A stretch of DNA of 64,000 nucleotides from Woeseiaceae bacterium (lineage in GTDB: Bacteria > Pseudomonadota > Gammaproteobacteria > Steroidobacterales > Woeseiaceae), in contig JABDQH010000075.1 in NCBI GenBank assembly GCA_013042375.1, positions 1 through 64,000 of the forward strand, read 5' to 3'. Below are positions 13,061 to 34,117 of the stretch, piece by piece. Position numbers and translations under genes: made by a program. Each line of letters starts with the position of its first letter. Within the stretch, counting starts at the first letter, position 1. The notes beneath the pieces are model-generated. The model saw only the letters and a list, made by a program, of their open reading frames with translations. It did no database searches and had not been told where the DNA came from.

Positions 13061-15367
13061 TCAGAAGAAGTTGACGGTGCCGCTCAGCGTCATGGTCCGG
13101 GGTGGACCGTAGAAGCCGATGACCGAGCTTGCGACGGTCGGGAAATCATAAGCCGCGGCGATGTACTCCTCGTCGAACAGGTTGCGGGCGTACAGGCCCA
13201 GCTCGTATTTCTCGTCGACCGACGTCCAGATGGCGCTGAAGTCGACCAGCGTGAAGTTACCCTGGTTGGTGAGCGGGTTCGGGATTTCGAACTGCGTCGT
13301 CGAGCTGCGATAGGCGATGCCCGTGAGCAGCGCGATATCGCCAAATTCGGACGGGTAGTCGAAGCGCAGGTTCAGGCTCGCCGTCGTCTCGGGCGTGTTC
13401 TGGAACTCGCGATCGCTCGAGATATCGACGAAGATGGGGTCGCCCGAGACCGGGTCCGTCGTCGCCTGCAGCCACTCCGTGTAGTCCGCATCGATCAGTC
13501 CGAGTGAAAACGTTGCCGAGAAGTTATCGGTGAAGCGGGCGATCGCCTCGAACTCGAAGCCGTCGACGTCGGCGCCGCCGGCGTTGGTGACACTGCCCGC
13601 GAAGTTGTCGTCCTGGCCGTCGCCGTCCGAGTCGAAGACGAACGAGCCCGGGATCTGCACGTCGGTGTAGTCCATCGTGAAGACGGCGATGTTGGTCGTC
13701 AGGCGACCGCCGGCCCAGACCGACTTGGCGCCGAATTCCAGCGACTCGACGGACTCGGGTGCGAAGCCCTGGCGCACCTCGGCGAAGTTGTAGGCGCCGC
13801 GTGGATCGAAGCCGCCGCCTTTGAAGCCTTCGCTGTATGAGAGGTACAGGTTGTGCTCGTCCGACGGTGCGTAGCCCAGGCTGACGCGCGGCGTGAATTC
13901 GCTGTCCGTGCGCTTGCCATTAAACTCGGGCACGCCCTCGCTCGGCACCGTGAGCGAAATCGCGGCATCGTTGCCGAAATAGGGCGAGCCGAGGCCGGCG
14001 AACGTCTCGCGCACGACGCGTGCCGTGCGTTCGTCCTCGGTGTAGCGCCCACCGATCGACAGGTTCCACTGGTCGTTCAATGCATAGCTGAAGTCGAAGA
14101 ACGCGGCCCATGCATCGGTGTCGTAGTCGCCCAGCGTGAACGGGGTCAGCGAACTGACGAATATGACATCGAAGGCGTCGAAGGCGTTGGCGTCGAGGTA
14201 GTAGAGGCCTGCCACGCCGGCAAGGCGATCGCCCGTGTACGTGAGTTGCAGCTCCTGGCTGAACTGCTCGTTGTCGTAAATGACCGGTGCATCGAAGGTA
14301 TCCGCGGGCAGGTTGTCGAAATCGATCCAGCTCTCGGTCTTGTCCGAACGGCTGGAGGTGATCGACTTGATCTGCAGCGTGTCGTTGACGTCCCACTCGA
14401 TCTGCAGGCCGACGCCGCCCTGCGTGGTTTCGGGGTCGAGGCCGCCGGTCGACGCCGGGAACGTGGAGATACCGGCGCGCGTGTCCCACACGTCATCGAG
14501 GACGGGCTCGCCGGCCGGGCCCTCGAGCAGGCGGTGGCCCTGGCGTGAGGTGGAGTCGTCGACGCTGTAATCGGCGAACAGGCGCAGGAACACGTTGTCG
14601 CTGGCTTCCCATTCCATGCTGAAGCGACCGGCGAGAATGTCCTTGTCGGCGTTTTCCTCGCCCGTCTCCAGGTAGCTGCCCCAGCCATCGCGCGTGAACT
14701 TCGCGAGCGTGCCGCCGATGCGGAACGTGTCCGACACGGGCATGCTGCCCTTGAGCACGAGGTCTGCCTGGCCGTACGTGCCGAGCGATGCCCTGGCGCT
14801 GAATTCCTGCTCGTCCGACAGCCGTTTCGTCACGTAGCGTACGGCGCCGCCGATCGTGTTGCGTCCGTACAGCGTGCCCTGCGGGCCGCGCAGCACTTCG
14901 ATGCGCTCGACGTCGTAGACGTCGAAGACCGTGCCCTGTGGCCTGGCGAGGTAGACGTCGTCGAGGTAGATGCCGACGCCGCCTTCCCAGCCCGCGACCG
15001 GGTCCTGCTGGCCGATGCCGCGAATGTAGGCGGTCAGCGTCGTGTTCGTGGCACGCGAGACTTCGAGGTGCACGTTCGGCGACTGGTGCGTGACAGCCGT
15101 GATATCGACCGCGCCCATGTCTTCGAGCTGATCGCCCGAGAAGGCCGACACGGCGATGGGCACGTCCTGGAGCGTCTCTTCACGACGGCGCGAGGTGACG
15201 ATGATTTCTTCCACGATCGAATCGCTGGCGTCCTCGGCATCCCGGGTATCCTGGGCAACCGCCGTCGCCGGTGTAACGGCGATGGCCAGTAATGCCGCAC
15301 CTGCAGCCGCCGAAAGGCACTGCCATGCGGGCTGACCGGCTCTTGTCCTGAGTGTCATTGTCTTCAT
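13061..15367 (-). CDS. TonB-dependent outer-membrane receptor
   Basis: A 768-residue protein. A signal peptide at residues 1-39 (…LLAIAVTPATAVAQ) is followed by an acidic linker and the TonB-box/plug start EEIIVTSRRREETLQDVPIAV. The plug continues with VEVLRGPQGTLYGRNTIGGAVRY-like sequence, and the rest is beta-barrel ending in Phe (GTVNFF), as expected for BamA recognition. It imports a large nutrient across the outer membrane with TonB energy; the ligand is unknown. Of several possible starts I took ATG 15367 because GGAGGAGCAA lies directly before it. It is divergent from tetR and the acyl-processing operon, so it probably supplies that operon's substrate under the same repressor. Confidence 0.93.
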   Translation of the reverse strand: MKTMTLRTRAGQPAWQCLSAAAGAALLAIAVTPATAVAQDTRDAEDASDSIVEEIIVTSRRREETLQDVPIAVSAFSGDQLEDMGAVDITAVTHQSPNVHLEVSRATNTTLTAYIRGIGQQDPVAGWEGGVGIYLDDVYLARPQGTVFDVYDVERIEVLRGPQGTLYGRNTIGGAVRYVTKRLSDEQEFSARASLGTYGQADLVLKGSMPVSDTFRIGGTLAKFTRDGWGSYLETGEENADKDILAGRFSMEWEASDNVFLRLFADYSVDDSTSRQGHRLLEGPAGEPVLDDVWDTRAGISTFPASTGGLDPETTQGGVGLQIEWDVNDTLQIKSITSSRSDKTESWIDFDNLPADTFDAPVIYDNEQFSQELQLTYTGDRLAGVAGLYYLDANAFDAFDVIFVSSLTPFTLGDYDTDAWAAFFDFSYALNDQWNLSIGGRYTEDERTARVVRETFAGLGSPYFGNDAAISLTVPSEGVPEFNGKRTDSEFTPRVSLGYAPSDEHNLYLSYSEGFKGGGFDPRGAYNFAEVRQGFAPESVESLEFGAKSVWAGGRLTTNIAVFTMDYTDVQIPGSFVFDSDGDGQDDNFAGSVTNAGGADVDGFEFEAIARFTDNFSATFSLGLIDADYTEWLQATTDPVSGDPIFVDISSDREFQNTPETTASLNLRFDYPSEFGDIALLTGIAYRSSTTQFEIPNPLTNQGNFTLVDFSAIWTSVDEKYELGLYARNLFDEEYIAAAYDFPTVASSVIGFYGPPRTMTLSGTVNFF

Positions 15368-15489
15368 TTGCTCCTCCGCCATCGTACGCCTGAGTGCCGG
15401 CTTGCCGCTGTCTTTTGCAGGCAGGAAAAGCAAGCCGGAGCCCCCGATTGAACTTGTTAATTATCCCAAAGTTTGCAACATTATGAAAC

Positions 15490-16104
15490 ATGGTTCAAGT
15501 TTCAGATTCAGCGCGGATTCCGAAGACTGAACGCGGCAGACGGACCCGAGACAAGCTCCTTGAGGCCGCCGAGATCGAATTCGGCGAGAAGGGCTACCAC
15601 GAGGCGGGCATCAGCGGCATCACCCAGCGCGCGGGCGTTGCGCTCGGCACGTTCTATACCTATTTCGCCAGCAAGGAAGAGATCTTTCGGGCATTGGTCC
15701 GCTACATGAGCCGGCACATCCGCGAGTGGGTGGCCGAGCGGGCGGCGGGGGCTCCGAACCGCCTCGAGGCCGAGCGCAGGGGTATCGAAGCCTTCATTGA
15801 GTTCGTCCGCCAGCACAAGAGCATCTACCGCATCATCTCGGAGGCGGAATTCGTCGCTCCCGGGGAGTATCGCGACCACTATGAAGGCTTCGCCGAGGGA
15901 TACCGGGTCAACATGAAACGGGCGGCGGCGAAGGGAGATATCCGCGAGGGGGACTTCGAAACGTGGGCGTGGGCGATCATGGGCCAGGTCGTGTTCATGG
16001 GCATGCGCTACGCCGAGTGGGACGACGGCCGCCCGGCCGCGGAACTCGCCGACGTCATCACGGACCTGATCGCTCGTGGAATCGGGCCGGAGGAAAGAAG
16101 ATGA
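15490..16104 (+). CDS. TetR-family transcriptional regulator
   Basis: A 204-residue protein. The N-terminal TetR helix-turn-helix is clear: RDKLLEAAEIEFGEKGYHEAGISGITQRAGVALGTFYTYF in pieces over residues 22-62. The variable C-terminal ligand domain follows. It starts the operon and its stop overlaps the ATG of the KAS III-like gene (ATGA). The 122-bp region between it and the divergent TonB receptor is the likely operator location; I saw only a weak TTGAAC/GTTCAA inverted pair there. The ligand is presumably an acyl compound handled by the operon, which is inference. Confidence 0.88.
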   Translation: MVQVSDSARIPKTERGRRTRDKLLEAAEIEFGEKGYHEAGISGITQRAGVALGTFYTYFASKEEIFRALVRYMSRHIREWVAERAAGAPNRLEAERRGIEAFIEFVRQHKSIYRIISEAEFVAPGEYRDHYEGFAEGYRVNMKRAAAKGDIREGDFETWAWAIMGQVVFMGMRYAEWDDGRPAAELADVITDLIARGIGPEERR

Positions 16105-17138
16105 GCGTAATGGGAATTGTCTCCACCGGCACCTGGTTTCCGGAGACTTTCGTTACCGCGGAAGAAATTGCGGAGCAGAGCGGCCTTCCCGAATGGGTGG
16201 TTCGCGAAAAGCTGGGTATCGAGCGCAAGTTCGTGGCGGACCCGAACGTGCATCCCAACGACATGGCGGTAAACGCGGCGCGCAAGGCTATCGACAATGC
16301 CGGCATCGATCCGATGGAGATCGACGTCGTCTTGTGCACCACGGAAGAATGGCGTGAGCACCTGTTGTGGACCACGGCCATCGATCTCGCCTACCGGGTC
16401 GGGGCCAAACGGGCCTGGGGAATTGACGTGCACGCGCGTTGCGTGACCACGATCGCCGCATTGAAGATGGCGCACGGCCTGTTGTCCGAGGATCCCTCGA
16501 TCAACACGGTGCTGATCGGCGGCGGTTACGCGATTTCCCATTTTATCGATTTCAGCGATCTGGACACCTCCTTCCTGTTCAATATCGGGGCCGGGGCCGG
16601 GGCGATGATCCTCAAACGCGACTGGCCCGAAAACCAGGTTCTGGGCAATCACCTCATCAGCGACGGTTCGATGAGCCGTCACGTGATCGTACCGAGCAGC
16701 GGCACCGTGCAGCATCCTACCGACCAGGCCGTGGCCGATGGCGGCTTCAAGTTTCGCCTGGTTGAGCCGGAGGCGATGAAGGCAAGGCTGGGTGAAGTCT
16801 CGATCCCGAACTGGCTGACCTGCGTGGATCGTGCGCTGGAAAAATCCGGGCACAAGAGCGACGGCACGCCCTATGCGCGCGCCGATATCGATTTTCTGAA
16901 CATGTCCCTGATCAAACCGTCCGGGCATCGTGAGATGCTGGACCAGCTGGGCCTCACCGAGGAGCACAGCGTCTACATCTCGGACATTGGCCATATCGGC
17001 GAGCAGGACGGGATCATCAACATCGAGGTCGGCCTCGAACAGGGCCGCCTGAAACCGGGCGACACCATGGTCATGCTCGGCGCCGGTATCGGCTATGTCT
17101 GGGGCGGCGCCGTCGTGCAGTGGGGACCGCCGAAATGA
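16101..17138 (+). CDS. KAS III-like thiolase-fold enzyme with altered catalytic triad
   Basis: A 345-residue protein of the 3-oxoacyl-ACP synthase III/OleA fold. The nucleophile Cys114 lies in GIDVHARCVTTIAALKMA, at the KAS III position. FNIGAGAGAMILKRD and the C-terminal MLGAGIGYVWGGAVVQW are family hallmarks. By hand alignment from the LGL element, the His of the HQAN motif is replaced by Ser269 (SLIK). The Asn of the GN(T) motif is replaced by His298 (DIGHIGEQDG), and His276 lies nearby. It is therefore not a housekeeping FabH and may use another acyl acceptor or do a different condensation or transfer. It overlaps tetR and the AMP-ligase gene by ATGA, with AGGAAAGAAG before ATG 16101. Confidence 0.8.
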   Translation: MSVMGIVSTGTWFPETFVTAEEIAEQSGLPEWVVREKLGIERKFVADPNVHPNDMAVNAARKAIDNAGIDPMEIDVVLCTTEEWREHLLWTTAIDLAYRVGAKRAWGIDVHARCVTTIAALKMAHGLLSEDPSINTVLIGGGYAISHFIDFSDLDTSFLFNIGAGAGAMILKRDWPENQVLGNHLISDGSMSRHVIVPSSGTVQHPTDQAVADGGFKFRLVEPEAMKARLGEVSIPNWLTCVDRALEKSGHKSDGTPYARADIDFLNMSLIKPSGHREMLDQLGLTEEHSVYISDIGHIGEQDGIINIEVGLEQGRLKPGDTMVMLGAGIGYVWGGAVVQWGPPK

Positions 17139-18664
17139 AACAGCTGTCACACTACGTTACCGACTGGCTCGACAAGCGCGCCAGGCTCACACCGGAGCGG
17201 GTCGCGCTTATCGACTACGCCAGCGGCGCGGAGACCACTTTCGCCGCGTGGAACGAGCGGGTCAACCGGACGGCGAACTACCTCAGGACCCTGGGTGTAG
17301 GGAAAGGGGACCTGGTCGCGGTTTACGCAATGAACCGTCTCGAGTACCTCGACCTGTTCTGGGCGGCGCCGAAGATCGGCGCGATCCTGCAGAACCTGAA
17401 CTGGCGCCTGACCGTGCACGAGCTGCAGGGCATCGTGGAAAGCGGCGCCCCGAAGGTGCTGATCTACAGCGAAGACTGGCGCGCCCAGGTAGAGGAACTG
17501 AAAGGCTCGTTCACCACGGTCGAGCATGTCGTGGCGATGACGAACCCCGGTCCCGGCGAACTCGATATCGCCGAACGTGAAGCCATGGCAACTGAGCTGA
17601 CGGATATTCCGCAACTGGAACTGGACCATCCGTGGGGCGTGTATTACACCGGGGGCACGACGGGACTGCCCAAGGGCGCGGTCGTGACGCACGGCAACGT
17701 GACTTGGAACAGCGTCAACACGATAACCTCCTGGGGCATCCACGGCCGGCACAAGGCTGCACTGCAGCTTCCCTTCTTCCACATCGGCGGGCCGATGATC
17801 TTCATGGTGCCCCTGGTCCATGCCGGCGGCACGACTATCCTGTGCTCCGGCTTCGATCCGGACGAGACCTTCGACCTGGTCGAAAACTCGGGTATCACGC
17901 ACTACGTCGCGGTACCGACGATGTTCCAGATGCTGCAGGAACACGCGCGCTGGGACGAGGCTGACTTTTCGAAGCTGGAACTGGTGATCAGCGGCGGGGC
18001 GCCCTGCCCACTTCCGGTCATGCAGAAGTTCTGGGACCGCGGTGTCGACTTCAAGATGGGCTACGGCCTGACCGAGGCATCCGGCAACAATTTCTGGTTG
18101 CCGCCAGAGCTGGTGAAGGAAAAGATCGGCTCCGTTGGTTACCCGATTTTCCACATCGACATGAAGACCATCCGCGAAGACGGCACGGCCTGCGCCGATG
18201 GCGAGGAGGGCGAGCTGTTAATACGCGGTCCGCACATCATGGCCGGCTACTGGAAGAATCCGGAGGCGACGGCCGATACCATCCGCGACGGCTGGTTGCA
18301 CACCGGTGACGTAGCCGTGCGCGACGCCGACGGATGCTACTCCATACTCGGCCGCTCCAAGGAAATGTTCATCAGCGGCGGCGAAAACGTCTATCCCGCC
18401 GAGATCGAATCCGTGCTGACGGCACACCCGAGTGTCCTGGAAGCCGCCGTGGTCGGCGTGCCCCACGAAACCTGGGGCGAGGTGGGACGCGCTTTCCTGG
18501 TGGTCGACAAAGCTTACGACGAAGCGGATCTGAAGGCCTTCCTCGACGAACGCCTGGCGCGTTACAAGCTGCCGCGCTCGATCGTGCTGCTCGATGAATT
18601 GCCGTTGACGGCGATCGGCAAGCTCGACAAGAAACTGCTCGAGCAATACGAGGACACGAAGTGA
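17135..18664 (+). CDS. AMP-dependent acyl-CoA synthetase/ligase
   Basis: A 509-residue ANL-superfamily enzyme. The P-loop is YYTGGTTGLPKG (residues 171-181), the adenine-binding motif GYGLTEASGNN, the hinge region WLHTGDVAVRDADGCYSILGRSKE in pieces, and the ISGGENVYPAEIE motif is intact. The catalytic Lys lies in LPLTAIGKLDKK near the C-terminus. It activates a carboxylate with ATP, normally to the CoA thioester; OleC-type relatives instead close beta-hydroxy acids to beta-lactones. Overlaps at both ends (ATGA with the thiolase-fold gene, GTGA with the hydrolase gene) indicate a coupled pathway. The substrate is unknown. Confidence 0.88.
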   Translation: MKQLSHYVTDWLDKRARLTPERVALIDYASGAETTFAAWNERVNRTANYLRTLGVGKGDLVAVYAMNRLEYLDLFWAAPKIGAILQNLNWRLTVHELQGIVESGAPKVLIYSEDWRAQVEELKGSFTTVEHVVAMTNPGPGELDIAEREAMATELTDIPQLELDHPWGVYYTGGTTGLPKGAVVTHGNVTWNSVNTITSWGIHGRHKAALQLPFFHIGGPMIFMVPLVHAGGTTILCSGFDPDETFDLVENSGITHYVAVPTMFQMLQEHARWDEADFSKLELVISGGAPCPLPVMQKFWDRGVDFKMGYGLTEASGNNFWLPPELVKEKIGSVGYPIFHIDMKTIREDGTACADGEEGELLIRGPHIMAGYWKNPEATADTIRDGWLHTGDVAVRDADGCYSILGRSKEMFISGGENVYPAEIESVLTAHPSVLEAAVVGVPHETWGEVGRAFLVVDKAYDEADLKAFLDERLARYKLPRSIVLLDELPLTAIGKLDKKLLEQYEDTK

Positions 18665-19728
18665 CCGTTCCGGTTCTCGAAGGAATCACCGCCCGTACCG
18701 TTGCGACGGAACGACTGACGACGAGAGTCCTGTTCGCCGGTCCTGAGGACGGCATCCCGGTGCTGCTGGTGCACGGCAATTTTTCCAGCGCCACCTGGTG
18801 GGAGGAGACGCTGGCGACCCTGCCGCCGCAATACATCGGCATTGCGGCCGACCAGCGCGGCTACGGTGGCGCGGATCGCGATGCGAAAATCGACGCCACG
18901 CGGGGGATGCAGGATTTCGTGGACGACGCGCTGGCGCTCATGGACCATCTCGGCCACGAACGGTTCCACCTGGTCGGCAATTCGCTGGGCGGACTGGTGG
19001 TCTGGTGGATGATGGCCGATGCCCCCGGGCGCCTGTTGTCGGCAACCCTCGCAGGGCCCGGAGCGCCTTTCGGTTTCGGCGGCACGAAGGATGCCGAAGG
19101 CACCCCGACCACGCCGGATTTCGCCGGTTCAGGCGGCGGCCTGATCAACCCGGACCTGATCCGGAGCCTGCTGGACGGCGACCGCGATAGCATCGGGGAT
19201 TTCAGCCCGCGCGGCATCATGCGCCGGCTCGTCTGGAGCGGCGGGCAGATACCGGAGCGCGAAGACGTATTGATCGATGCCATGTTCAGGGCGCACATCG
19301 GCGACCGCGAGCTTCCCGGCGACTTCGAACGCTCGCCGAACTGGCCCTACGTGCGGCCTGGCAAATGGGGCGCCACCAACGCGATGTCCCCCATGTACGT
19401 CGGCAACCTTGTGACACGGATTCTCGCGGGCGAACCGAAGGTCCACGCCTTGTGGGTCTACGGCGCCGATGACCTCGCCGTGTGCAACACCGCGGCATCG
19501 GATCCGGGTACCTGGGGCCCCACCGGTCGGCTGCCCGGTTTCCCGGGCTCCGAGGCCTATCCGCCACAGCCGATGATGGACCAGATCCGCAAGATGCTCA
19601 CCGACTATGCGGCGGCCGGCGGCTCCTATGAGGAGGTAGCCATACCCGACTGCGGCCACGTGCCGTTCATCACCCACATCGAGGCATTCGACGAGGCATT
19701 TCATGCCCACCTCGCGAGAACGAGCTGA
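18661..19728 (+). CDS. Alpha/beta hydrolase
   Basis: A 355-residue protein starting with GTG in the overlap GTGA. The oxyanion motif is LVHGNFSSATWW and the nucleophile elbow is GNSLGG. The acid is probably in the ADDLAV region, and the base His is in DCGHVPFITHIEAF. The length and extended cap (residues ~140-260) exceed a simple esterase. In the Ole pathway the hydrolase-fold partner OleB decarboxylates a beta-lactone with an Asp nucleophile. Here the nucleophile is Ser, so thioester or lactone hydrolysis is more likely. Confidence 0.85.
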   Translation: MTVPVLEGITARTVATERLTTRVLFAGPEDGIPVLLVHGNFSSATWWEETLATLPPQYIGIAADQRGYGGADRDAKIDATRGMQDFVDDALALMDHLGHERFHLVGNSLGGLVVWWMMADAPGRLLSATLAGPGAPFGFGGTKDAEGTPTTPDFAGSGGGLINPDLIRSLLDGDRDSIGDFSPRGIMRRLVWSGGQIPEREDVLIDAMFRAHIGDRELPGDFERSPNWPYVRPGKWGATNAMSPMYVGNLVTRILAGEPKVHALWVYGADDLAVCNTAASDPGTWGPTGRLPGFPGSEAYPPQPMMDQIRKMLTDYAAAGGSYEEVAIPDCGHVPFITHIEAFDEAFHAHLARTS

Positions 19729-19818
19729 GCGAAAAGCGGGTACGACCAGGGTGACCGTATCGCGCAAAGCAGGCCCCTACAGATGTGCGCGGAAAGCGCT
19801 ACAATAGCGACAGCGACC

Positions 19819-21417
19819 ATGGATCAGTTCGACTACATCATAGTCGGTGCAGGTTCGGCCGGTTGCGTATTGGCCAACCGGCTGAGCGAAGACCCGGCGG
19901 TCAGTGTCTGCCTCATCGAAGCAGGACCAGTGGATAGCCATCCGCTGATCCATGCACCGATCGGCTTCTCCTTACTGACCCAGCACAAGAAGATCAACTG
20001 GCGGTTCGAGACCGCCTTGCAGGAGCAACTGAACGGCCGACAAGGCTTCCAGCCCAGGGGCCGGGTTCTCGGCGGCTCCAGCTCGGTCAATGCCATGGTC
20101 TACATCAGGGGCGTGCCCGCGGACTACGACCGGTGGGAGGAGGCGGGCGCCACCGGCTGGTCGTATCGGGACGTCCTGCCGTACTTCAAGAAGTCGCAGG
20201 ACCAGGAGCGCGGCGCGGACGAGTTTCACGGCACGGGTGGCCCGCTTTCCGTCAGCGATTTGCGTTACAAAAATCCCCTGAGCCACATGTTCCTCGACGC
20301 GGCAGGGCAGCTCGGCTTGCCGGCAAATGACGATTTCAACGGCGCATCGCAGGAGGGCGTCGGTTTCTTCCAGGTGACACAGCGAGCTGGCCGGCGGTGT
20401 AGCGCTGCCGTTGCTTACCTGGCGCCCGCGCGCAAGCGAAGCAACCTGGCCGTGGTCACCGGGGCACACGTGGAAAAGATCGTCATCGACGCGAATCGCG
20501 CCGTCGGTGTGGAGTACCACGATGGCACTCGCAAGATCACGCTCGGGGCCAACCGGGAAGTGCTCTTGTCGGCCGGCGCGCTCCAGTCACCGCAACTCCT
20601 GATGCTCTCCGGCATCGGTCCCGCCGGGCATTTGAATGAACACGGCATCGAGGTTGTCCACGATGCGCCCGAGGTCGGGGACAACTTGCAGGACCACTTC
20701 GACTACACGGTGATTCGGCGAGTGAGATCATCGCACGCGATGGGATACACGTTGTCGAGGATGCTCCGTGTGATACCCGATTTCATTCGATACTTGCGGG
20801 GAGTCGGCCCGTTTACGTCAAACCTGGCCGAAGCCGGCGGGTTCCTGCGCACGTCGAGCGAGGAACCCGACCCGGACATCCAGTTGCATTTCGTCCCGGG
20901 CATCGTCGATGACCACGGCCGGAAGATGTACTTCACCGCAGGTATTTCCTGCCATGTATGCGTGCTGCGGCCCGAGAGCCGGGGAAGCCTGACGCTTGTC
21001 GATGCCAATCCCCGCTCGGCCCCGAATATCGATCCCCGCTTCCTGAGTGCGGCCGACGACCTGGAGCGCACCCTGCGGGGCGCAAGACTGGTCAACCGAA
21101 TCCTGGATGCGCCGGCATTCGAGCGGGTCATCGGGCGATCCCTGTACGTGAACGGCGATGCCGGGGACGAGGAACTGATCGAAGACATCCGTCGTCGAGG
21201 CGATACGATCTATCACCCTGTCGGGACCTGCCGCATGGGGTCGGATGCCACCGCCGTTGTCGACCCGTCCGCGCGGGTCTGCGGCGTTCAGGGCCTGCGC
21301 GTCGTCGATGCGTCCATCATGCCGACGCTGGTCTCCGGCAATACCAATGCTCCCACGATAGTGATCGCCGAGAAAATCGCGGATGCGATCAAGAGCGAGG
21401 CGCGCGCCTCAGGCTGA
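19819..21417 (+). CDS. GMC-family FAD-dependent oxidoreductase (choline/alcohol dehydrogenase-like)
   Basis: A 532-residue flavoprotein. The N-terminal FAD Rossmann motif is [23 protein letters not shown] signature 1 is [19 protein letters not shown], and signature 2 is [16 protein letters not shown]. The catalytic His lies in [10 protein letters not shown], and C-terminal [17 protein letters not shown] completes the family pattern. It oxidises an alcohol to an aldehyde or acid. I start at ATG 19819, the usual family N-terminus; ATG 19783 would add 12 residues, and neither has a clear ribosome site. It follows the hydrolase gene by 90 bp and is probably the last gene of the tetR operon. Its end overlaps the convergent DUF2505 gene by 9 bp. 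Confidence 0.9.
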
Positions 21418-21900
21418 ATCCAGGCGTTCGGTGAGGTACACGTACTCCTCGGCGATGAGGCGCTTGCAGTCTTTCCCGACGAACTCGGCCAGTGTCTTGC
21501 CGACGAGCGGAATACCGCAGTCAACCGTCATGCGCACGTGATTGACGCAGCCATTCTCGAGAGGCTCCAGCTCGAGCGTACCGCTTATCGTGACCGGGAC
21601 GTTGGCGATCTCGATTTCGAGCTCCGCGTCGTAACGGCCATCGTCCCCGCTCCGCCAGTCCTCCGACTGCGTCACGGTGTTCCAGGGCTGCAGGAACTTG
21701 CTGAGGATACCGGGCACGTCGGCCGGCAGTTCGCGCACGAACCTGACATCGGCCCCGTCATCGTAAATCTCGCATTCCTCTATGCGGATACTGCGGGCGC
21801 CGAGCGCTTCCTGTTTCGCCTCGATCTCGGCGGCATCCGTGAACAGCGCATACAAGGCCTCGAGGCTGTGCGCGTATTCGTGATCCCGGCGAATCTTCAT
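21409..21900 (-). CDS. DUF2505-type SRPBCC domain protein
   Basis: A 163-residue protein starting [22 protein letters not shown] and ending [16 protein letters not shown]. Alternating strands, a central [17 protein letters not shown]-like segment and the terminal long helix fit the START/SRPBCC-like DUF2505 family, whose members probably bind hydrophobic ligands. The ATG lies one base after the HMG-CoA reductase stop, so the two are translated from one message. The tail overlaps the GMC oxidoreductase stop on the other strand. A direct role beside the reductase, such as lipid binding, is inference. Confidence 0.7.
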
Positions 21901-21901
21901 G

Positions 21902-23074
21902 TCAGCGGTTGCGCCCCATCTGTTCGTGGCTGCTGACCCATTCGTGGGCGAGGATTGCGGATGACAGCGATACGTCGCCCGCCAGTACCACGGCGGCAAT
22001 AATCTCGGCGAACTTGTTCGCCTTGCCGGTGCCGTAGCAGTCCATCATCTCGAGGCATTCGCGCTGCGTCGGCAGACCCGTGCCTCCGCCGTAGGTCGCG
22101 CAGATCAACGCCGGCAGCGTGGTCGACCAGTACAGGTCGCCGTTGTCGAGCAGCTCGATGTAGTTCATGCCGGCATGGGACTCGGACACGTTGGCCGCAT
22201 CCTGGCCCGTGGCGATGAACATGGCGGCGATGCCGTTCGCGGAGTGGGCGCCGCCGTACGCGGCGCCGGACAGCTGCGTCCCGATGTCGGCGATCTGCCT
22301 GAAACGGTACAGCCATTCGGGTTCGATACGCAGCAGCTCTTTCGCCACGTCCCGCTTGAGGACGAACTCCGCGATCACGCGTTTGCCGCGCGTCTGGATC
22401 ATGTTCATCTGCGAGTGTTTCTTGTCCGTGTCGATGTTGCCGGACAGGATGTAGCGCGGTTTCGCCGGGTGGTTGGCGCGGATCCACTCGCAGGCGTACA
22501 GCGTCGCCTTGCCCGTCATGTTCTGGCCGGCAGCATCGCCGGTCGTGTAGCAAAAGCGCGTGTAGAGCATCTTGGCGGCCGCGTACTTCTCGATCTCGAT
22601 TAGCTCGGGCACGTCCACCGAGGCCCGGACGACGCCGCGCAGCGCGTCGATGTGCTCGTCGAGCCATTTGCCGAACTCGCGCGCCTCGAGCGCATTGTCG
22701 AACAGGAACACCGGCGCCCGCTGCATCGAGTGCTTGACGACCGTGCACCTTGCGCCGCCGCACTCGCTGATGACGCGCATGCCGCGGCTATAGCTTGCGA
22801 CCAGGGTTCCTTCGCTGGTCGCCAACGGGATATAGAAATCGCCCTTTGCGTGCTCACCAACCATCGTCAGCGGGCCGGCAAGTCCTATCGGCACCTGCGC
22901 CGTGCCCACAAAGTTCTCGATGTTCCCGTGGGTTGTCGCCGGATCGATCGTGTAGCTCGCGACCGAATCCAGCGAAGCGCCCGTCATCGTCTTGACGAAG
23001 TCGGCCCGTTGCGAGGCCATCTCGCGCGTGTGGTCGTTATCCCGGTCGCGGGGAATTCGGTCGGATTTTGCCAT
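21902..23074 (-). CDS. Hydroxymethylglutaryl-CoA reductase, class I-like
   Basis: A 390-residue soluble reductase without membrane segments. ENFVGTAQVPIGLAGPL and ATSEGTLVASYSRG (catalytic Glu88) are followed by TTGDAAGQNM, IDTDKKHSQMN (catalytic Lys of DKK, 218-219), GQDAANVSESHAG (Asp292) and a C-terminal SSHEQMGRNR (His383). All four catalytic residues are present, and the TDKK/GQD/SH pattern resembles class I (NADPH) more than the bacterial class II enzymes. It makes mevalonate from HMG-CoA. GGAGAA precedes ATG 23074. No other mevalonate-pathway gene is seen in the window. Confidence 0.88.
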   Translation of the reverse strand: MAKSDRIPRDRDNDHTREMASQRADFVKTMTGASLDSVASYTIDPATTHGNIENFVGTAQVPIGLAGPLTMVGEHAKGDFYIPLATSEGTLVASYSRGMRVISECGGARCTVVKHSMQRAPVFLFDNALEAREFGKWLDEHIDALRGVVRASVDVPELIEIEKYAAAKMLYTRFCYTTGDAAGQNMTGKATLYACEWIRANHPAKPRYILSGNIDTDKKHSQMNMIQTRGKRVIAEFVLKRDVAKELLRIEPEWLYRFRQIADIGTQLSGAAYGGAHSANGIAAMFIATGQDAANVSESHAGMNYIELLDNGDLYWSTTLPALICATYGGGTGLPTQRECLEMMDCYGTGKANKFAEIIAAVVLAGDVSLSSAILAHEWVSSHEQMGRNR

Positions 23075-23101
23075 GACGTTCTCCGATGGGTGATGTCCTG
23101 C

Positions 23102-24505
23102 CTATACTATATCCTCGAGTTCGGCCAGTGAGTCCTCGAGGTAGTCGACCAGGCGCTGGACGCGTGGGACCGTGTGCCGGCACGCGACGATGCCGAAGTC
23201 GAGATTGCCGTTGTAGCTGACAAACGTGATGTTCAGTGCGATGCCGTGGAAGACGGCGGACGCGGGATACGAACCGATCAACGGCGCGCCGTTCCAGTAG
23301 AGCTGCTCGCTGGGGCCCGGTACGTTCGAGATGACCATGCTGACCGGCGGGAACCAGTCCGCGACGCCTATCAAGCTGGCGACGAACAGCGGCGTCTGCA
23401 TCAGGGTCGCGTAGATGCCGGCCTCCCGTGACGTCAGCTCGCCGAGCATGTCTTTGCCGGCGCGCGTGGATTCCACGATGGTGTCGAGCCGATCGGCAGG
23501 ATCTTCGTGCCGAGTACCGAGGTCGGCGATGATATAGCTGATCGCCAGTGGCGAGTCGAAGTCGTGTTTCTCCCTGACCGATACGGGTACCAAAGCGCGC
23601 AAGGAATGCTCCGGAAGCTCGTCCAGTTCCTCGAGGTAACGTCGCAGCGCGCCGGAACACATTGCCAGGACGATATCGTTGATCGTCACGCCCGCCGCCG
23701 CGCTGACTTCGTGTATGCGATCGATGCTCCACGACTGGGCGACGAATCGCCGTGAGGCCGAGACTTCGGTATTCAGCATCGTGTGCGGAATATGCCGCCA
23801 GGGCACGGCCAGGCCGTTGCCGAGACCGAGCCACGTGGCCGCGTATTTCCTGAGCACCCCGAGGAAATGCGCGGAGGTGTCGAACTGGGCTCTGAAGAAA
23901 TTAGCCAATACCATGAGATCGGATTCACTGGGCTCGAAATCGGCCTCCCGGGCCTGTCCACGCCGTGCCTTGAATCTCTCGTGCACCTTGACCGACAGAG
24001 GCGACAGATCGGTGCTGGCATCGGGGTCTGTCGAACAGCTTGCTTCGGTCAGACGAACGCCGGCAACGCCGTCGATCGTCGCGTGATGCAGTTTCGTGTA
24101 GACGGCAAACTCGCGGTTCTGCAGACCCTCGATAAGATGGACTTCCCAGAGAGGGCGACTGCGATCAAGTAGCGTGGCATGCAGCCTTGATACGAGCGAA
24201 AACAGCTCGCGGTATCGTCCCGGTTTCGGCAGGGCCGAATGGCGAACGTGGTAGTCGAGATCGATGTCCGGGTCGGGTTCCCAGTAGAGCGGGCCGAAGC
24301 GACCCAGCATGCCGTGCTGCACGCGATGGCCAAAGGGCTTGCGAAGTTCCTCGCCTGTTCGATAGGTCTCATCGATCCGGGACATAAACTTGCGCTGGTG
24401 CACGCGCGCGGGAAACCGAAATAGATTCAGGCCGGCCACGTGCATCGGCGATTCGGGGCTTTCCAGGTACAGAAACCCCGAGTCCAAAAGACCAATTCTG
24501 TCCAC
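23102..24505 (-). CDS. Wax ester synthase / diacylglycerol acyltransferase (WS/DGAT)
   Basis: A 467-residue member of the bifunctional WS/DGAT family. The active-site motif HHATIDG (in TKLHHATIDGVAGVRL) is intact. The N-terminal MDRIGLLDSGFLYLESPESPMHVAG and the C-terminal MVISNVPGPSEQLYWNGA, with its NVPGP element, are family hallmarks. It esterifies fatty alcohol or diacylglycerol with acyl-CoA to form storage lipids. The start is GTG 24505, supported by the conserved N-terminus but without a clear ribosome site. It precedes the HMG-CoA reductase gene by 27 bp on the same strand, so the two may be co-transcribed. Confidence 0.9.
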   Translation of the reverse strand: MDRIGLLDSGFLYLESPESPMHVAGLNLFRFPARVHQRKFMSRIDETYRTGEELRKPFGHRVQHGMLGRFGPLYWEPDPDIDLDYHVRHSALPKPGRYRELFSLVSRLHATLLDRSRPLWEVHLIEGLQNREFAVYTKLHHATIDGVAGVRLTEASCSTDPDASTDLSPLSVKVHERFKARRGQAREADFEPSESDLMVLANFFRAQFDTSAHFLGVLRKYAATWLGLGNGLAVPWRHIPHTMLNTEVSASRRFVAQSWSIDRIHEVSAAAGVTINDIVLAMCSGALRRYLEELDELPEHSLRALVPVSVREKHDFDSPLAISYIIADLGTRHEDPADRLDTIVESTRAGKDMLGELTSREAGIYATLMQTPLFVASLIGVADWFPPVSMVISNVPGPSEQLYWNGAPLIGSYPASAVFHGIALNITFVSYNGNLDFGIVACRHTVPRVQRLVDYLEDSLAELEDIV

Positions 24506-24659
24506 ACTATGATAGTAGCGGATCGCGGCGACGAAAGAGCGGCTCGAGACATACGTAATTTCATCAGTACGGCCTCCGTATCAGTCCGGGGCGCTCAACG
24601 CGGCGCTGGTATATTCTCAGCAAGGGACGAAGTGGCATCGTCCGACAGGAGCCCGGGCC

Positions 24660-25760
24660 ATGAACAGCGTGAAGTCCATTCAGCATGTGTCCGATCTGGG
24701 CACGTACCGCTGCGTGTCGGGCAAGCGTCTTCAGAACGTAAGGATCGGTTTCGAGACGTACGGCACGCTGAATGCCGACAAGAGCAACGCCATCCTCGTG
24801 TGCCACTATTTCTCCGGCAACGCGCGCGCCGCCGGCCCGGCCGACGATGTCCACGAGCTCCCGGGCTGGTGGGACAAGCTCATTGGCCCCGGCAAGGCCC
24901 TGGACACGGACCGTTATTTCATCGTGAGCAGCAACACGTTGGCCAACCTCAACGCCTGCGACGGCTACTCGGTCACGACCGGCCCGGCCAGCGAGAACCC
25001 CGAGACCGGCGCAGCCTGGGGAATGGACTTCCCGCTCGTCACGGTCGAGGATTTCGTGCGCGTGCAGAAACGCCTGCTGGAGCATCTCGGAATCGAGCGC
25101 CTGGTTGCCGTGGCCGGCCCGTCCGGCGGCTCGGTACAGGCCATCCAGTGGTCGGTCGAGTACCCGGAAATGGTGCCACGCGTCATCGCGGTCATTTCGC
25201 CGGGACTGTACATTCATCCCTACGCAGCCGCCATGATGGAGCTGTGGACCCGGCCGATCATCGCCGACCCGGCCTGGAACAGGGGCGACTACTACACCGC
25301 CAACCCGCCCCGGGAGGGCCTCGCGCAGGCTCTGGCCCTGGTGAACCTCGCCTCGTTGTCTTACGAGGTGGTCGGCGAATTCGGCTACGGGCCCGCCGAA
25401 GAGGGAAAACATCCCGCCGAATCGCTACAGCACCAGTTCATCGCCGACGCCACGCTCGACGGAATCGCCCGCGCTCGCGCCGAGACCCTGGACGCCAACA
25501 GTTTTCTCTACATGGTCCACGCCTACAAGCTGTACGACGTGCGTCCCCGCCTGCACAAGTCACGCGCCAGGTACCTGTTCATCCCGTCCGCAACCGATAT
25601 GGTTTTTCCACCCCACCTTTCCGCCACGGCCGTCGATGACCTGCGGGCGGCCGGGCTCGACGCCGAACTGTCCATGCTGAACGTCAGCGGCGGCCACCTG
25701 GACGGACTGATGCAGATCGACCGGGCCGCAGCCGGGATCAGGCAGTTTCTCGACAGCTAG
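24660..25760 (+). CDS. Homoserine O-acetyltransferase (MetX)-family alpha/beta hydrolase
   Basis: A 366-residue alpha/beta-hydrolase-fold acyltransferase relative. RIGFETYGTLNADKSNAILVCHYFSG is the typical MetX opening. The nucleophile elbow is AGPSGGSVQAIQW (MetX normally has GGSMGGMQ), and the base is in VSGGHLDGLMQID. The altered elbow and the HYFSG in place of HALTG suggest an acyltransferase or hydrolase other than true MetX. A GGAG element precedes ATG 24660. It is divergent from WS/DGAT, and its stop abuts the convergent symporter stop with no spacer. Confidence 0.72.
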   Translation: MNSVKSIQHVSDLGTYRCVSGKRLQNVRIGFETYGTLNADKSNAILVCHYFSGNARAAGPADDVHELPGWWDKLIGPGKALDTDRYFIVSSNTLANLNACDGYSVTTGPASENPETGAAWGMDFPLVTVEDFVRVQKRLLEHLGIERLVAVAGPSGGSVQAIQWSVEYPEMVPRVIAVISPGLYIHPYAAAMMELWTRPIIADPAWNRGDYYTANPPREGLAQALALVNLASLSYEVVGEFGYGPAEEGKHPAESLQHQFIADATLDGIARARAETLDANSFLYMVHAYKLYDVRPRLHKSRARYLFIPSATDMVFPPHLSATAVDDLRAAGLDAELSMLNVSGGHLDGLMQIDRAAAGIRQFLDS

Positions 25761-27266
25761 TTAAAGTTCCATCGCCATTTCGACGCGACGGTCGAGGGTA
25801 TCCGCGGTGGTCAGCAGGGAGGCGGCAATTGTGACCACGACCGCGGCTGCCATGACGAAAACGTACCAGGGCACGCCCCCCGGCCAGGCGAAGTCGGCAA
25901 GCCCGAACCTGTTGAGCAGCTCGATCGTAACGCCGCCGACGGTGGCCAGTAGTGCGGCCAGCATGCCCGTCATCACGCCCCGGCCAGTAGCACCCTTCCA
26001 CAGTAGCCCGACGATGAAGATCGGGAACGTGGCCGCGGCCAGCGTGCCGAATCCATAGGTGCCGAGGATGGCCACCATGTCTCCGCTTACCGAGGCGAAA
26101 CCAATGGCTGCGACCCCCATAACCGACATCGCGATGCGCGAGACGGTCACCTGCCGGGCCGCGCTGAACGTGACGCCGAGCGATCCCGGCAGGTCACGGG
26201 ACACAATATTGCCGGCAAGCGACAGGAAGAGGCTCGAGGTGGACAACGCGGCGGCCAGCACGGCCGGGTATACGAACAGCTGGGCGACGAGGCCGAGATA
26301 GTCCGCAACCTTGAACACTGCCTTGTCGGGGTGATCGATCTCGACCAGGCCGTTGGCAACCAGGTAAATGGCGCAGTAGCCGATGGCCATCACCATCATG
26401 CCGGTGATCATGTTGGTGCTCACCGCGTAAATTGACAGCTTCGGCAGCTCGCGCGGATCCCGGAGCATCATTACTCGTGTCAGCACCTGGGGCTGGCACA
26501 TAATGCCGAGGGTGGGCAGCATGACCCAGGCGAAGGAGTAAGCGCCGGGCAGGCTGCCCCAGGCGGTCATTGCTGACGGATCCAGGCCCGCCGCCGCGCC
26601 CTGCGGACCCGAAATGGCTTCAAGCACGGGCCCGAAGCCTCCGGTCACGACGAAAAACGCGATCGCAAAGATCAGGCCGGCCAGGACGATGACGAATCCC
26701 TGGAAGGCCTGGGTCAGGATGCCCCCGATTTCGCCGCTGAGCACGGTGTAGGCGATGAGGATGGCAAAAATCACCACGCTGATGACGAGCTTGTTCCACT
26801 CGAACAGGTTTTCGAACAGCTTGGCGCATGCCTCAACCTGGGCTGAGAGGTACATCGCACAGCCGATGAACAACATCAGCGAAAGGATCAGCTTGATGCC
26901 TCGATGGCCGTTGAAGCGCAGGTCCGACAGGTCGCCCAGGCTGGCGACGGTGCCAATCTCGGCCATGGCCCGCACCTTCTTGCCGATCACCAGGTAGCCG
27001 AATACAAAGCCGGGCGCCGCGAACATGAACAGCAGGATCGTGTTGCCGGTGCTGTACACCAGCCCCGGCACACCCACTACCGCGAAGGCGCTGCCAACGG
27101 CGGCCATGGTGGCGAGGCCGACGGTGAGCGGGCCGAAGATCTTTGCGCCGCCGAAAAACGCCTCGGGTGAGGTGACCTTCTTTTTCGCCCACAGGCCGAT
27201 GCCGAAGGAAATGGCCAGGACCGAGAAGGACGAGGCCAGGATCAGGTATTTGGCCCATTCGCTCAT
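25761..27266 (-). CDS. Sodium:solute symporter (SSS family)
   Basis: A 501-residue, about 13-helix transporter. GGAKIFGPLTVGLATMAAVGSAFAVVGVPGLVY near the N-terminus, the SSS core (FKVADYLGLVAQLFVYPAVLAAALSTSSLFLSLAGN) and TYGFGTLAAATFPIFIVGLLWKGATGRG identify the family, with resemblance to the acetate/ActP and pantothenate branches. It probably imports an organic acid with sodium. Its ATG overlaps the stop of the upstream small membrane protein (ATGA), suggesting a two-part transporter. The substrate cannot be read from sequence. Confidence 0.88.
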   Translation of the reverse strand: MSEWAKYLILASSFSVLAISFGIGLWAKKKVTSPEAFFGGAKIFGPLTVGLATMAAVGSAFAVVGVPGLVYSTGNTILLFMFAAPGFVFGYLVIGKKVRAMAEIGTVASLGDLSDLRFNGHRGIKLILSLMLFIGCAMYLSAQVEACAKLFENLFEWNKLVISVVIFAILIAYTVLSGEIGGILTQAFQGFVIVLAGLIFAIAFFVVTGGFGPVLEAISGPQGAAAGLDPSAMTAWGSLPGAYSFAWVMLPTLGIMCQPQVLTRVMMLRDPRELPKLSIYAVSTNMITGMMVMAIGYCAIYLVANGLVEIDHPDKAVFKVADYLGLVAQLFVYPAVLAAALSTSSLFLSLAGNIVSRDLPGSLGVTFSAARQVTVSRIAMSVMGVAAIGFASVSGDMVAILGTYGFGTLAAATFPIFIVGLLWKGATGRGVMTGMLAALLATVGGVTIELLNRFGLADFAWPGGVPWYVFVMAAAVVVTIAASLLTTADTLDRRVEMAMEL

Positions 27267-27724
27267 TCCCGGCCCTCCCGGTCTTCACCTTCATCCGTGC
27301 CGTGCACGCGGCGCAGGAATTCGTCCCAACGCTCCTGCGACAGCCAGCGATCCTTGACCGCCTCGAAACCGAAACCCATCAGCAGTGTTGGCACGATCCA
27401 GAACAGGACGACGATGGCGGCGAAGGAGGGGTGAAAACCGAATATTGTGAATGCAGGTTCGCGCCCGGCATAGAGCTCCGCGAAGTGGTTGCCCAGCCAG
27501 AACGCGGCCGCCCACATCACGAGCCAGACGAGGGAAGGAAACGCGACCAGCCTGAGGTCGAACCGCCCCTTGTGCGAGGTACCCAGCACGCCGTAAACGA
27601 GTAACAGGCCAAGAAGCGCGTAGAGTCCTGCCAACCAGTGCCCGGCGCCGGCCAGCCCGACCATCGCAAGCCACAGCAAGCCGCTGATGCTCATGAGGAG
27701 CGTTTCTGTTTTTCCCTTGTTCAT
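27263..27724 (-). CDS. Small membrane protein paired with the symporter
   Basis: A 153-residue protein with four hydrophobic segments (MSISGLLWLAMVGLAGAGHWLAGLYALLGLLL, then LVAFPSLVWLVMWAAAFWLG, and AAIVVLFWIVPTLLMGFGFEA) and a charged, acidic C-terminal tail (HGTDEGEDREGRE). GAGGAACA precedes ATG 27724. Small partner proteins (DUF485, DUF4212) are known for SSS transporters. This one occupies the same place and overlaps the symporter gene, but I do not recognise its family. Confidence 0.7.
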   Translation of the reverse strand: MNKGKTETLLMSISGLLWLAMVGLAGAGHWLAGLYALLGLLLVYGVLGTSHKGRFDLRLVAFPSLVWLVMWAAAFWLGNHFAELYAGREPAFTIFGFHPSFAAIVVLFWIVPTLLMGFGFEAVKDRWLSQERWDEFLRRVHGTDEGEDREGRE

Positions 27725-29493: not shown

Positions 29494-30525
29494 TCACAAC
29501 TTACGGCCCGCCAGCGCGTCCATCGTTGCCTTGATCACTTCGACCTGGGGCCCGGCTTGCGTCGCGTAGCCGTCTTCCGTGTAGCCCCACCAGTCCCAGC
29601 AGCCCATCGGATTGAGCGGCGCAATCTTGCTGCTCGCAACCTGCGGATAGAGGATGAGTAACCGATTTGCTTCGGCCCACTCGTTGTACCCGGCGCCAGC
29701 CGCAAACGCGTCGCCGATGTATTCGGCCGATTGCAGGCAGCCGTGCAGAGCCACATGCAGACCACAAGCTTCGCCGGCTGCGCAGGACTCGGGCACGTAG
29801 AGAAGCGCGTGATCGAGCATGGTCGCATCGTCTGCGCCTGGCTGCGGAACATCCTTCAGCTCACCGGCCGCGGCGACCCCCGGCTCGAGTTCGCCATAGA
29901 TCGCCGCCAGCAGCTCACCGGCTGCGTCGTAGTCGCAGGCGTTCAGGTACGGCGATGCCATCTCGTTGCAGGTGACCCCGGTTTTCAGCGTCGGGAAGCC
30001 GTGCGTGGCCTCGACGTCGCCGACGTACTTGATGGATTCTTGCGGCATGAATTCTGCGTAGAAGGCAATAGCCGCCTGCGAGACCGGTTCTGCAACGGCT
30101 TCGTCCAGAGTCGCGTGGAATATCCATGCGCGGTCGTCCGCGAGATTGGCCAGCGAATCGACTGCGCCATCGGCTTCGGCCTGCTTCGCGGCCGCAATCA
30201 GTTGCGCGTTGCCAATATCGCCGCCTTTCATACAGGGACCGAGTCCGCGCTTCATGGAACCCTGGGCGCAGTACCAGGGGCCGCCCGACAGCAGGGCAAC
30301 GCCGTTGAACAACGACGAGTGCGCAACGTGCAGTTGCGTCGCCATCATCGCACCCGAGGAGAGGCCCGAAACGCTGATGCGACTGGCATCGACGTTGTAA
30401 GTGATGCTCTCTGTCGGCTCGGCCGGTTCCTCGGTGCCGCAGGCACTGATCAGGATTGCGGCGAGCGGCAAAAATCCGCGCGCGCGCATCAGGGCACCGT
30501 GGCTGGCGTCGTCGGCTTGTGTCAT
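29494..30525 (-). CDS. PHB depolymerase-like esterase lipoprotein
   Basis: A 343-residue lipoprotein. The lipobox ILISAC ends the signal and is followed by a TEEPAEPTES linker. The depolymerase domain has ISVSGLSSGAMMATQLHVAHS with the nucleophile Ser in GLSSG, LLSGGPWYCAQGS, a likely base His in VEATHGFPT, and the second half LHVALHGCLQSAEYIGDAF and CWDWWGYTEDGYATQ. Relatives cleave short-chain polyhydroxyalkanoate or other polyesters; the anchoring suggests periplasmic or surface action. ATG 30525 has GGAGGA seven bases upstream, although it places twelve polar residues before the signal core; ATG 30489 is an alternative. Confidence 0.82.
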   Translation of the reverse strand: MTQADDASHGALMRARGFLPLAAILISACGTEEPAEPTESITYNVDASRISVSGLSSGAMMATQLHVAHSSLFNGVALLSGGPWYCAQGSMKRGLGPCMKGGDIGNAQLIAAAKQAEADGAVDSLANLADDRAWIFHATLDEAVAEPVSQAAIAFYAEFMPQESIKYVGDVEATHGFPTLKTGVTCNEMASPYLNACDYDAAGELLAAIYGELEPGVAAAGELKDVPQPGADDATMLDHALLYVPESCAAGEACGLHVALHGCLQSAEYIGDAFAAGAGYNEWAEANRLLILYPQVASSKIAPLNPMGCWDWWGYTEDGYATQAGPQVEVIKATMDALAGRKL

Positions 30526-30546
30526 GTCTGCTTCCTCCTTCTGCAC

Positions 30547-31480: not shown

Positions 31481-32326
31481 ATGTACTCGAATTTTTCGCA
31501 AACAGACTGGGTGACGCCGTTCGGCCTGATCTTCATCCTGGCGACCTTCGTGGCCTGGTACTGGGCGCGTCGCAATGCGTCGAGCGTCGATGTCGATCCA
31601 TCGCACGTCGACCTGATTGTGCCTCTCACGATCGTCGCCGGCATTTTCGGCGGAACGGTGCTCGCCTGGCTCATGCCGATGGACCACATGGTTGCGGGCG
31701 AGGCGATGAATCACGGACCGCGGGTTCGGCTATTCGGCATGCTCGGAACGGGCGCGATCGGCCTGTTCATCTACAGCCGTATCGCGGGCCTTGCGTTCTC
31801 ACGCATGCTCGATGTGTTTGCCCTGCCGACGCTGGCCGGTCTTGCTACACACCGCGTCGGCTGTTTCCTCGCGGGCTGCTGCTGGGGCGATATCGCGGGT
31901 GCAGCCGAGGTCGGTGACCTGGCCGCGCAGGTGCAAACGACGTCGATATTGCAGGGCGTCGGCGGCCTTGTGCAGTACCCGCCGGGCAGCCTGCCCTTCG
32001 ATCAACACGTGGCGCTGGGTCTGATCGGGCAGGGCGCGCCCGCGTCGCTGCCGGTCTATCCTGTGCAGCTTTATGAGGCCGCACTGCTCGTGGCGATGAT
32101 TCTTGTGCTGTCGCGCGTGCGCTGGCGACGCGCACCTCGCGGCACGCTTGCCGTACTCGCAATATTCTCGTACGCGCTGCTGCGGTTTGTCATCGAGTAC
32201 CTGCGCGCGGACGGGCACCTGGTCATGGGCAACCTGACCGTGACGCAGCTGCAGTGCATCGTTCTCGCGCTGATCATCCTGTCGCTGCCGCGACTGCGCG
32301 GGCGCCTCGCGATGCGCGGCGCGTAG
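31481..32326 (+). CDS. Lgt-like (prolipoprotein diacylglyceryl transferase family) membrane protein
   Basis: A 281-residue, about seven-helix protein. HRVGCFLAGCCWGD corresponds to the Lgt signature region (GRxGNFxNxE in true Lgt) but has a Cys pair. VYPVQLYEA and LLRFVIEYLRAD match the QLYE and RFxxExxR elements of the family. The changed signature argues that this is a paralogue, not the essential Lgt. The lipoprotein gene directly upstream may be its partner, by context only. GGGAACGGC precedes ATG 31481. Confidence 0.78.
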   Translation: MYSNFSQTDWVTPFGLIFILATFVAWYWARRNASSVDVDPSHVDLIVPLTIVAGIFGGTVLAWLMPMDHMVAGEAMNHGPRVRLFGMLGTGAIGLFIYSRIAGLAFSRMLDVFALPTLAGLATHRVGCFLAGCCWGDIAGAAEVGDLAAQVQTTSILQGVGGLVQYPPGSLPFDQHVALGLIGQGAPASLPVYPVQLYEAALLVAMILVLSRVRWRRAPRGTLAVLAIFSYALLRFVIEYLRADGHLVMGNLTVTQLQCIVLALIILSLPRLRGRLAMRGA

Positions 32327-33915: not shown

Positions 33916-34117
33916 GACGTGTCTCTCGGTACGGATGTCATCACGAAAGTATACTGCACGCACGTCCGTGCACTACCTGTATACCGAAATCGCGATCGGG
34001 CGACCTTGCAGCAGACATCGTGCCCCGCAGCGTCTGGCATCGACGAGGATATTTGAGAGCCAGGGCACGGTGCCGTCGATGAGATCGGCCTAGAATCCGG
34101 TTCTTCGTCGTCCATGA

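Follow-up and report, generated by a model that had tools for sequence, protein, structure and literature searches.

Gene Content of the Locus

The window analyzed here, a stretch of 64,000 nucleotides (positions 1 to 64,000 of contig JABDQH010000075.1, assembly GCA_013042375.1) from a seafloor-type Woeseiaceae bacterium, contains an operon built around an enzyme resembling ketoacyl synthase III (KASIII). The contig is 84 kb long, and the genome assembly amounts to 2.76 Mb at 84% completeness. We describe the operon as one instance of a widely conserved module that is accompanied by importers and likely has a catabolic role. Four genes run rightwards on the plus strand: a TetR-family regulator (15490..16104; PF00440), the KASIII-like enzyme of family NF005308 (16101..17138; 398.1 bits against a cut-off of 315), an acyl-coenzyme A (CoA) ligase of the AMP-forming MenE/FadD type (17135..18664; PF00501/PF13193) and an alpha/beta hydrolase (18661..19728) whose catalytic set, Ser108-Asp271-His333, was assigned from an alignment. 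Each of the three junctions, tetR/KAS, KAS/ligase and ligase/hydrolase, is a 4 bp overlap (ATGA, ATGA and GTGA, respectively). Divergent from these genes is a TonB-dependent receptor (13061..15433, minus strand; PF00593/PF07715), which likely serves outer-membrane uptake. Its annotated start is a TTG at 15433, but in-frame Met codons occur at residues 18 and 23, and the true start is probably downstream. A GMC oxidoreductase gene (19783..21417, plus strand; PF00732/PF05199) begins 54 bp 3' of the hydrolase, without overlap, and is outside the conserved unit.

A first-pass annotation made from the letters alone had placed these six genes in this order at 13061–21417, and it had noted the three stop–start overlaps, a Ser nucleophile in the hydrolase and the lack of an OleD-type reductase. 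All of this is borne out: the nucleophile is Ser108 in a GNSLGG motif, invariant in 19 homologues, and neither the list of open reading frames (ORFs) nor the Pfam scan has such a reductase between 13061 and 21417. What it called a thiolase-fold enzyme can be named more closely as KASIII-like, above the cut-off of NF005308/PRK06840. The idea of a single codirectional operon with a TetR regulator, opposite a TonB receptor, is also supported.

Conservation of the Module

Neighborhoods were compared in 49 loci having at least 3.5 kb of flanking sequence on each side of the KASIII-like gene (hereafter KAS). The counts of neighbors rest on tblastn, because a crude gene caller picked some antisense ORFs in GC-rich loci, and rows labeled 'KASB' were left out of the locus table as self-hits to KAS. 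The neighborhood comparison that the first-pass annotation had proposed finds the module conserved. In 48 of the 49 loci, KAS has a ligase homologue no more than 4.6 kb away. The hydrolase is near KAS in 26, and in all 12 from Gammaproteobacteria and Acidimicrobiia, and a short-chain dehydrogenase/reductase (SDR) is near KAS in 25. The shared gene order is far from chance: of six gammaproteobacterial loci whose flanks are long enough, five repeat the complete arrangement of tetR-KAS-ligase-hydrolase and a divergent TonB receptor, and the remaining one has a different tetR. The TetR homologues found in the same place are 64–73% identical in the gammaproteobacterial relatives and 38–46% identical in Acidimicrobiia.

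The other constant companions of KAS are importers. TonB receptor homologues (32–52% identity) diverge from the KAS operon in all six of the gammaproteobacterial loci. Loci of the Lysobacterales type have the order symporter, small protein and TonB receptor opposite tetR-KAS-ligase-hydrolase-depolymerase; several of them carry an SDR farther along. The window has both of the first two genes on the minus strand, as a sodium:solute symporter (SSF; 25761..27266; PF00474) and a 153-residue protein (27263..27724). The symporter homologues are 83–89% identical in L032, L034, L035, L038 and L091, and the gene adjoins the TonB receptor in the Lysobacterales relatives. The 153-residue protein has no match in Pfam or NCBIfam, but its homologues (66–76%) are likewise paired with the symporter, and it is possibly a small symporter subunit. 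Loci of Acidobacteriota and KSB1 also have a TonB receptor and an SSF symporter. In Acidimicrobiia and Chloroflexi, an ATP-binding cassette (ABC) transporter of branched-chain type replaces the TonB receptor; a binding protein is near KAS in six of six acidimicrobial loci, and the ABC transporter is present in many from Chloroflexi. Two of the three haloarchaeal plasmids examined (L129 and L130) carry genes for MaoC, hydrolase, ligase, regulator, five ABC components and KAS in a row, and the third carries only the ABC genes and KAS. The module is a cassette conserved across domains, with a looser form in haloarchaea. Since it travels with a TonB receptor and sodium symporter, or with a branched-chain-type ABC transporter, we read it as most likely catabolic rather than OleABC-like. 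This supports one of two readings offered by the first-pass annotation, that an imported compound is catabolized. The same annotation had raised the question of a characterized operon family with a known substrate: the family is indeed widespread, but no characterized member was found.

A few accessory genes bear on the substrate. A CoA-transferase-like gene is near KAS in L030, L108 and L109. Those of L030, where it is next to KAS, and L109 resemble butyryl-CoA:acetate CoA-transferase, which points to a short acid as the substrate. Some clusters add MaoC, an SCP2-like thiolase with DUF35 and a second odd KASIII.

The GMC oxidoreductase does not belong to the conserved set. In the two closest relatives, a MetX-like gene directly follows the hydrolase (86% identity in L026 at 12689, which is the G006 locus, and 82% in L032 at 13713), so the stretch corresponding to 19729–24659, containing genes for the GMC protein, a DUF2505 protein, 3-hydroxy-3-methylglutaryl-CoA (HMG-CoA) reductase and a WS/DGAT protein, is absent from the locus in both. 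The window counterpart is a MetX-like putative esterase (24660..25760, plus strand; 416.6 bits to NF005262, below the cut-off of 450). A GMC gene is near KAS in none of the 49 loci, G006 has no homologue at E ≤ 1e-120, and an 82% identical relative occurs in G023, a genome without a close KAS. The GMC protein, which the first-pass annotation had counted into the operon, is thus a local addition absent from all relatives compared, and we excluded it as a member of the pathway. Operons of the polyethylene glycol degradation type combine a TonB receptor, a GMC oxidoreductase and a ligase; we set this candidate aside given the lack of conservation of the GMC gene.

The KASIII-like Enzyme

An AlphaFold2 model of the enzyme (pLDDT, the predicted local distance difference test score, 92) has the KASIII fold. 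By fold comparison, structures of BioZ and FabH tie at Z 37–38, with a root mean square deviation (rmsd) of 2.3–2.5 for FabH, and the Foldseek matches include structures of OleA. The structure comparison with OleA and FabH proposed by the first-pass annotation thus shows likeness in the fold, but this does not extend to the FabH catalytic residues. These were counted in 41 NF005308-type members aligned to E. coli FabH. The nucleophile, FabH Cys112, is kept as Cys114. FabH His244 is replaced by S269 in the window enzyme and by S, L, V or I across the 41 members, and FabH Asn274 is replaced by His298, in a GHIG motif, in all 41. Glu82, Glu83, Glu86 and Lys272 are invariant in the 41, and Glu83 and Lys272 are new compared with FabH. 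Three haloarchaeal KAS proteins keep Cys114, Glu83, Lys272, His298 and Asp303. Six FabHs of the relatives, on the other hand, keep the Cys/His/Asn triad. The window KAS scores 109 bits against the curated FabH model TIGR00747, well under its cut-off of 292. It is a full member of NF005308/PRK06840, named '3-oxoacyl-ACP (acyl carrier protein) synthase', but that name states an assumed reaction, and the catalytic residues differ from the FabH set.

The replacement at Asn274 is in the direction of thiolases, which belong to the same superfamily. We take the FabH Asn274 place, here His298, to be that of thiolase His348, an equivalence drawn by way of the FabH alignment. The catalytic residues of thiolases are a Cys, either Asn or His, and a further His that belongs to a GHP motif (PMC3406046). 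Acetoacetyl-CoA thiolase and the window KAS both have the nucleophilic Cys and the His of a GH motif. However, the window protein (345 aa) lacks the long loop domain of the thiolase, the NEAF-type Asn in the place of the FabH His and the second catalytic Cys. The last belongs to a CxG motif in thiolase, where KAS has A328-G329-I330-G331, the first three being the same in all 41 members. A thiolase role for the KASIII-like protein is something we infer from the His switch and the gene context. It is possible, and we propose it tentatively, that NF005308 represents a catalytic class new to the thiolase superfamily, with a KASIII fold and a Cys-Glu-Lys-His set, which would run the Claisen reaction backwards and replace thiolase in an importer-linked module for the catabolism of esters or hydroxy acids in several bacterial phyla and haloarchaea. 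Literature searches on the NF005308 family, and on a role of KASIII in poly(3-hydroxybutyrate) (PHB) or in retro-Claisen metabolism, yielded no relevant publication.

The KASIII fold and the OleA structures among the matches would also suit a biosynthetic operon, in which the enzyme condenses acyl groups into a lipid, a ketone or a beta-lactone-type product. The first-pass annotation had drawn this analogy to OleA/OleB/OleC, and the enzyme classes do overlap with those of the OleABCD pathway at the level of superfamilies. However, KAS reaches 39.6 bits where NF006720/PRK09258, which we take to be the OleA model, requires 285, and the Cys-His-Asn set is not kept. The hydrolase is of the Ser type in 19 of 19 homologues, not of the Asp type of OleB; OleD is lacking, and importers are the conserved neighbors. 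In the family scores, which included no comparison dedicated to OleC, the ligase sits with the MenE/FadD types. Family score, residues and gene context together led us to reject the OleABC analogy itself, and biosynthesis of any such kind is improbable. Positive evidence for a beta-lactone-type product is nil: the conserved neighbors are importers, hydrolases and an SDR, along with a PHB depolymerase in Gammaproteobacteria.

The invariant Glu pair might act as the base in an HMG-CoA-synthase-like or other acyl-transfer enzyme, tied to the class I HMG-CoA reductase encoded between the hydrolase and the MetX-like gene (21902–23074), as Glu82/83 are presumably near the spot of the HMG-CoA synthase Glu. 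Against that, KAS reaches only 48.3, 33.1 and 24.7 bits on HMG-CoA synthase models with cut-offs of 244, 353 and 360, and it lacks the His retained by HMG-CoA synthase where FabH has His244. The reductase gene is within the stretch missing from the G006 and L032 loci, and it is near no relative's KAS. We consider an enzyme of this kind very improbable, and we rejected identity with HMG-CoA synthase on scores and residues. The reductase is patchy in the genus, occurring in 5 of 25 same-genus genomes including this one.

A second KASIII type (F2; L045 5404–6651, L055 4330–5328 and similar) often shares clusters with NF005308. It too is noncanonical, having Thr, Tyr and a GSAC motif at the FabH His244, Asn274 and Ser places.

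Hydrolase and Depolymerase

The Ser-Asp-His set of the hydrolase is invariant in the 19 homologues aligned. A PDB profile search puts the intracellular PHB depolymerase PhaZ of Bacillus thuringiensis first (8ynv/8ynw) at 102 bits, with the next entry at 78. The structure model (pLDDT 92) agrees: 8ynv is the best match by Foldseek, where PhaZ occupies ranks 1–6, and VIA gives Z 30.0 and rmsd 2.8 over 275 aligned residues, the next entry having Z 27.2. PhaZ is the best solved relative by both sequence profile and fold; however, the identity is 23%, and PhaZ has about 300 residues against 355 in the window hydrolase.

In L034 (8235–9332), L037, L038 and L091, the gene that directly follows the hydrolase encodes a depolymerase of the NF050059 type; in L036, the depolymerase gene lies a bit further on. 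The window also encodes a depolymerase for short-chain-length polyhydroxyalkanoate (PHA), of the secreted type with catalytic domain type 2 (29494..30546, minus strand; 344 bits to NF050059, cut-off 280), whose best PDB match is the PHB depolymerase of Penicillium funiculosum, 2d80. This is not the operonic depolymerase of the relatives, as its identity is 58–84% to four members of the genus and 43–47% to the operonic ones.

Proposed Pathway

We propose that the operon is substrate-inducible and directs the uptake and CoA-dependent breakdown of an ester or hydroxy acid, the best guess being 3-hydroxybutyrate oligomers derived from PHB. We put the probability of this reading at roughly 45%. The compound would enter through the TonB receptor and the sodium symporter, or through the branched-chain-type ABC transporter in other phyla. 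The Ser hydrolase would cleave the ester inside the cell, and the ligase, or the CoA-transferase-like protein in a few relatives, would form the CoA thioester. An SDR, which is beside the operon in half of the relatives, would oxidize the 3-hydroxyacyl-CoA, and the KASIII-like enzyme, with its thiolase-like His in place of the FabH Asn, would split the 3-ketoacyl-CoA with CoA. In Gammaproteobacteria, the outcome would be conversion of a PHB-derived 3-hydroxybutyrate oligomer to acetyl-CoA. This step order matches that of short-chain PHA utilization by depolymerase, oligomer hydrolase, 3-hydroxybutyrate dehydrogenase, CoA activation and thiolase, as far as the possible chemistry of the window genes goes. 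The known system differs in having a thiolase where there is a KASIII-like protein here and an acetoacetate CoA-transferase where there is an AMP-forming ligase here, and TonB uptake is particular to the present case.

Several observations weigh against this proposal. Thiolysis is not assured, since the second thiolase Cys is lacking. The ligase is generic: its best NCBIfam matches, PRK06839 and PRK06187, are both under cut-off, and FadD and MenE types also match. The hydrolase scores 64.5 bits against the cut-off of 300 for NF050089, the intracellular short-chain-length PHA depolymerase. The depolymerase of the window is 10 kb off the operon and falls in a clade typical of the genus, many genomes of which have such a depolymerase without KAS. 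No SDR is beside the operon in the window. In the relatives, the SDR is of the FabG/acetoacetyl-CoA reductase/3-hydroxybutyrate dehydrogenase type, which counts in favor of the proposal; the 3-hydroxybutyrate dehydrogenase model TIGR01963 is uninformative here, as SDRs match it in all genomes and none exceeds the cut-off. Finally, no NF050059-type depolymerase was found near KAS outside Gammaproteobacteria, and a different ester or acid may thus be the substrate in general.

That last point leads to a serious contender, if one short of even odds, in which the same import and activation serve the catabolism of some other small ester, hydroxy acid or keto acid, and the gammaproteobacterial depolymerase is a local add-on. 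Most relatives do lack the depolymerase and have several generic esterases, some of them nearest to metagenomic Est1; the ABC transporter type is broad; and the additional MaoC, SCP2-like thiolase with DUF35 and second KASIII of some clusters would fit it as well. However, the operonic depolymerase, the PhaZ-like fold of the hydrolase and the FabG/PhaB-type SDR agree on PHB in Gammaproteobacteria. PHB is a plausible substrate, and 3-hydroxybutyrate oligomers are our best guess for that class; for the family as a whole, only an imported ester or hydroxy acid is a safe description.

Genes of this family are labeled '3-oxoacyl-ACP synthase' and read as fatty acid synthesis, but their neighborhood points to uptake and breakdown. 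If they do cleave 3-ketoacyl-CoA, the annotation of an entire family points in the wrong metabolic direction, and metagenome-based estimates of the turnover of the polyester PHB in sediments miss a route.

Regulation

The proposed inducibility involves a candidate TetR operator of 21 bp (15484..15504), the palindrome TGAAACATG-GTT-CAAGTTTCA, in the divergent promoter. It is an inverted repeat of 9 + 9 bp, complementary at 8 of 9 positions, and it overlaps the tetR start codon. From this site, TetR would repress transcription in both directions. The palindrome is kept in all seven of the tetR-bearing loci aligned, and it is the sole such site in the genome, allowing up to two mismatches. Part of it is tetR coding sequence, and its conservation alone is no proof of the putative binding site. 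For the TonB side, there is a weak sigma-70-like match that overlaps the palindrome, but such matches occur at chance frequency. In G006 and L032, a different regulator gene on the opposite strand replaces tetR; in G006 (L026 8210–8937), it encodes a TetR protein with a TetR_C_30 domain, beside two TTCAACG-NN-CGTTGAA sites. This is a swap of the regulator in an otherwise approximately 90% identical operon.

Distribution and Descent

Near neighbors of KAS in a scan of named genomes are Woeseiaceae metagenome-assembled genomes. A 91% identical orthologue is present in one (G006) of 36 other same-genus genomes searched. Among 369 genomes searched in the class, three (this one included) carry NF005308; among 398 in the phylum, this is the only one. 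The scan of named genomes yielded 80 KAS loci, in Woeseiaceae, Lysobacterales, Xanthomonadales, Chromatiales, Acidimicrobiia, Acidobacteriota and Chloroflexota, and further in KSB1, Bipolaricaulota, Ignavibacteriota, Myxococcota and Lachnospiraceae. The KAS homologues of the haloarchaeal plasmids have 33–36% identity. Carriers available in culture include Plesiocystis pacifica SIR-1 and Halobaculum limi. The gammaproteobacterial sequences form a clade nested next to Acidimicrobiia and Acidobacteriota, which, together with the patchy distribution, suggests that the module spread by horizontal transfer.

Two more genes were noted further along the window. The first (31481–32326) encodes a protein like prolipoprotein diacylglyceryl transferase that is over the Pfam cut-off and far under the NCBIfam Lgt cut-off; it may be a divergent second copy of Lgt. 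The second (32518–33963) encodes a peptidase M64 (IgA-peptidase family) protein including its N-terminal domain.

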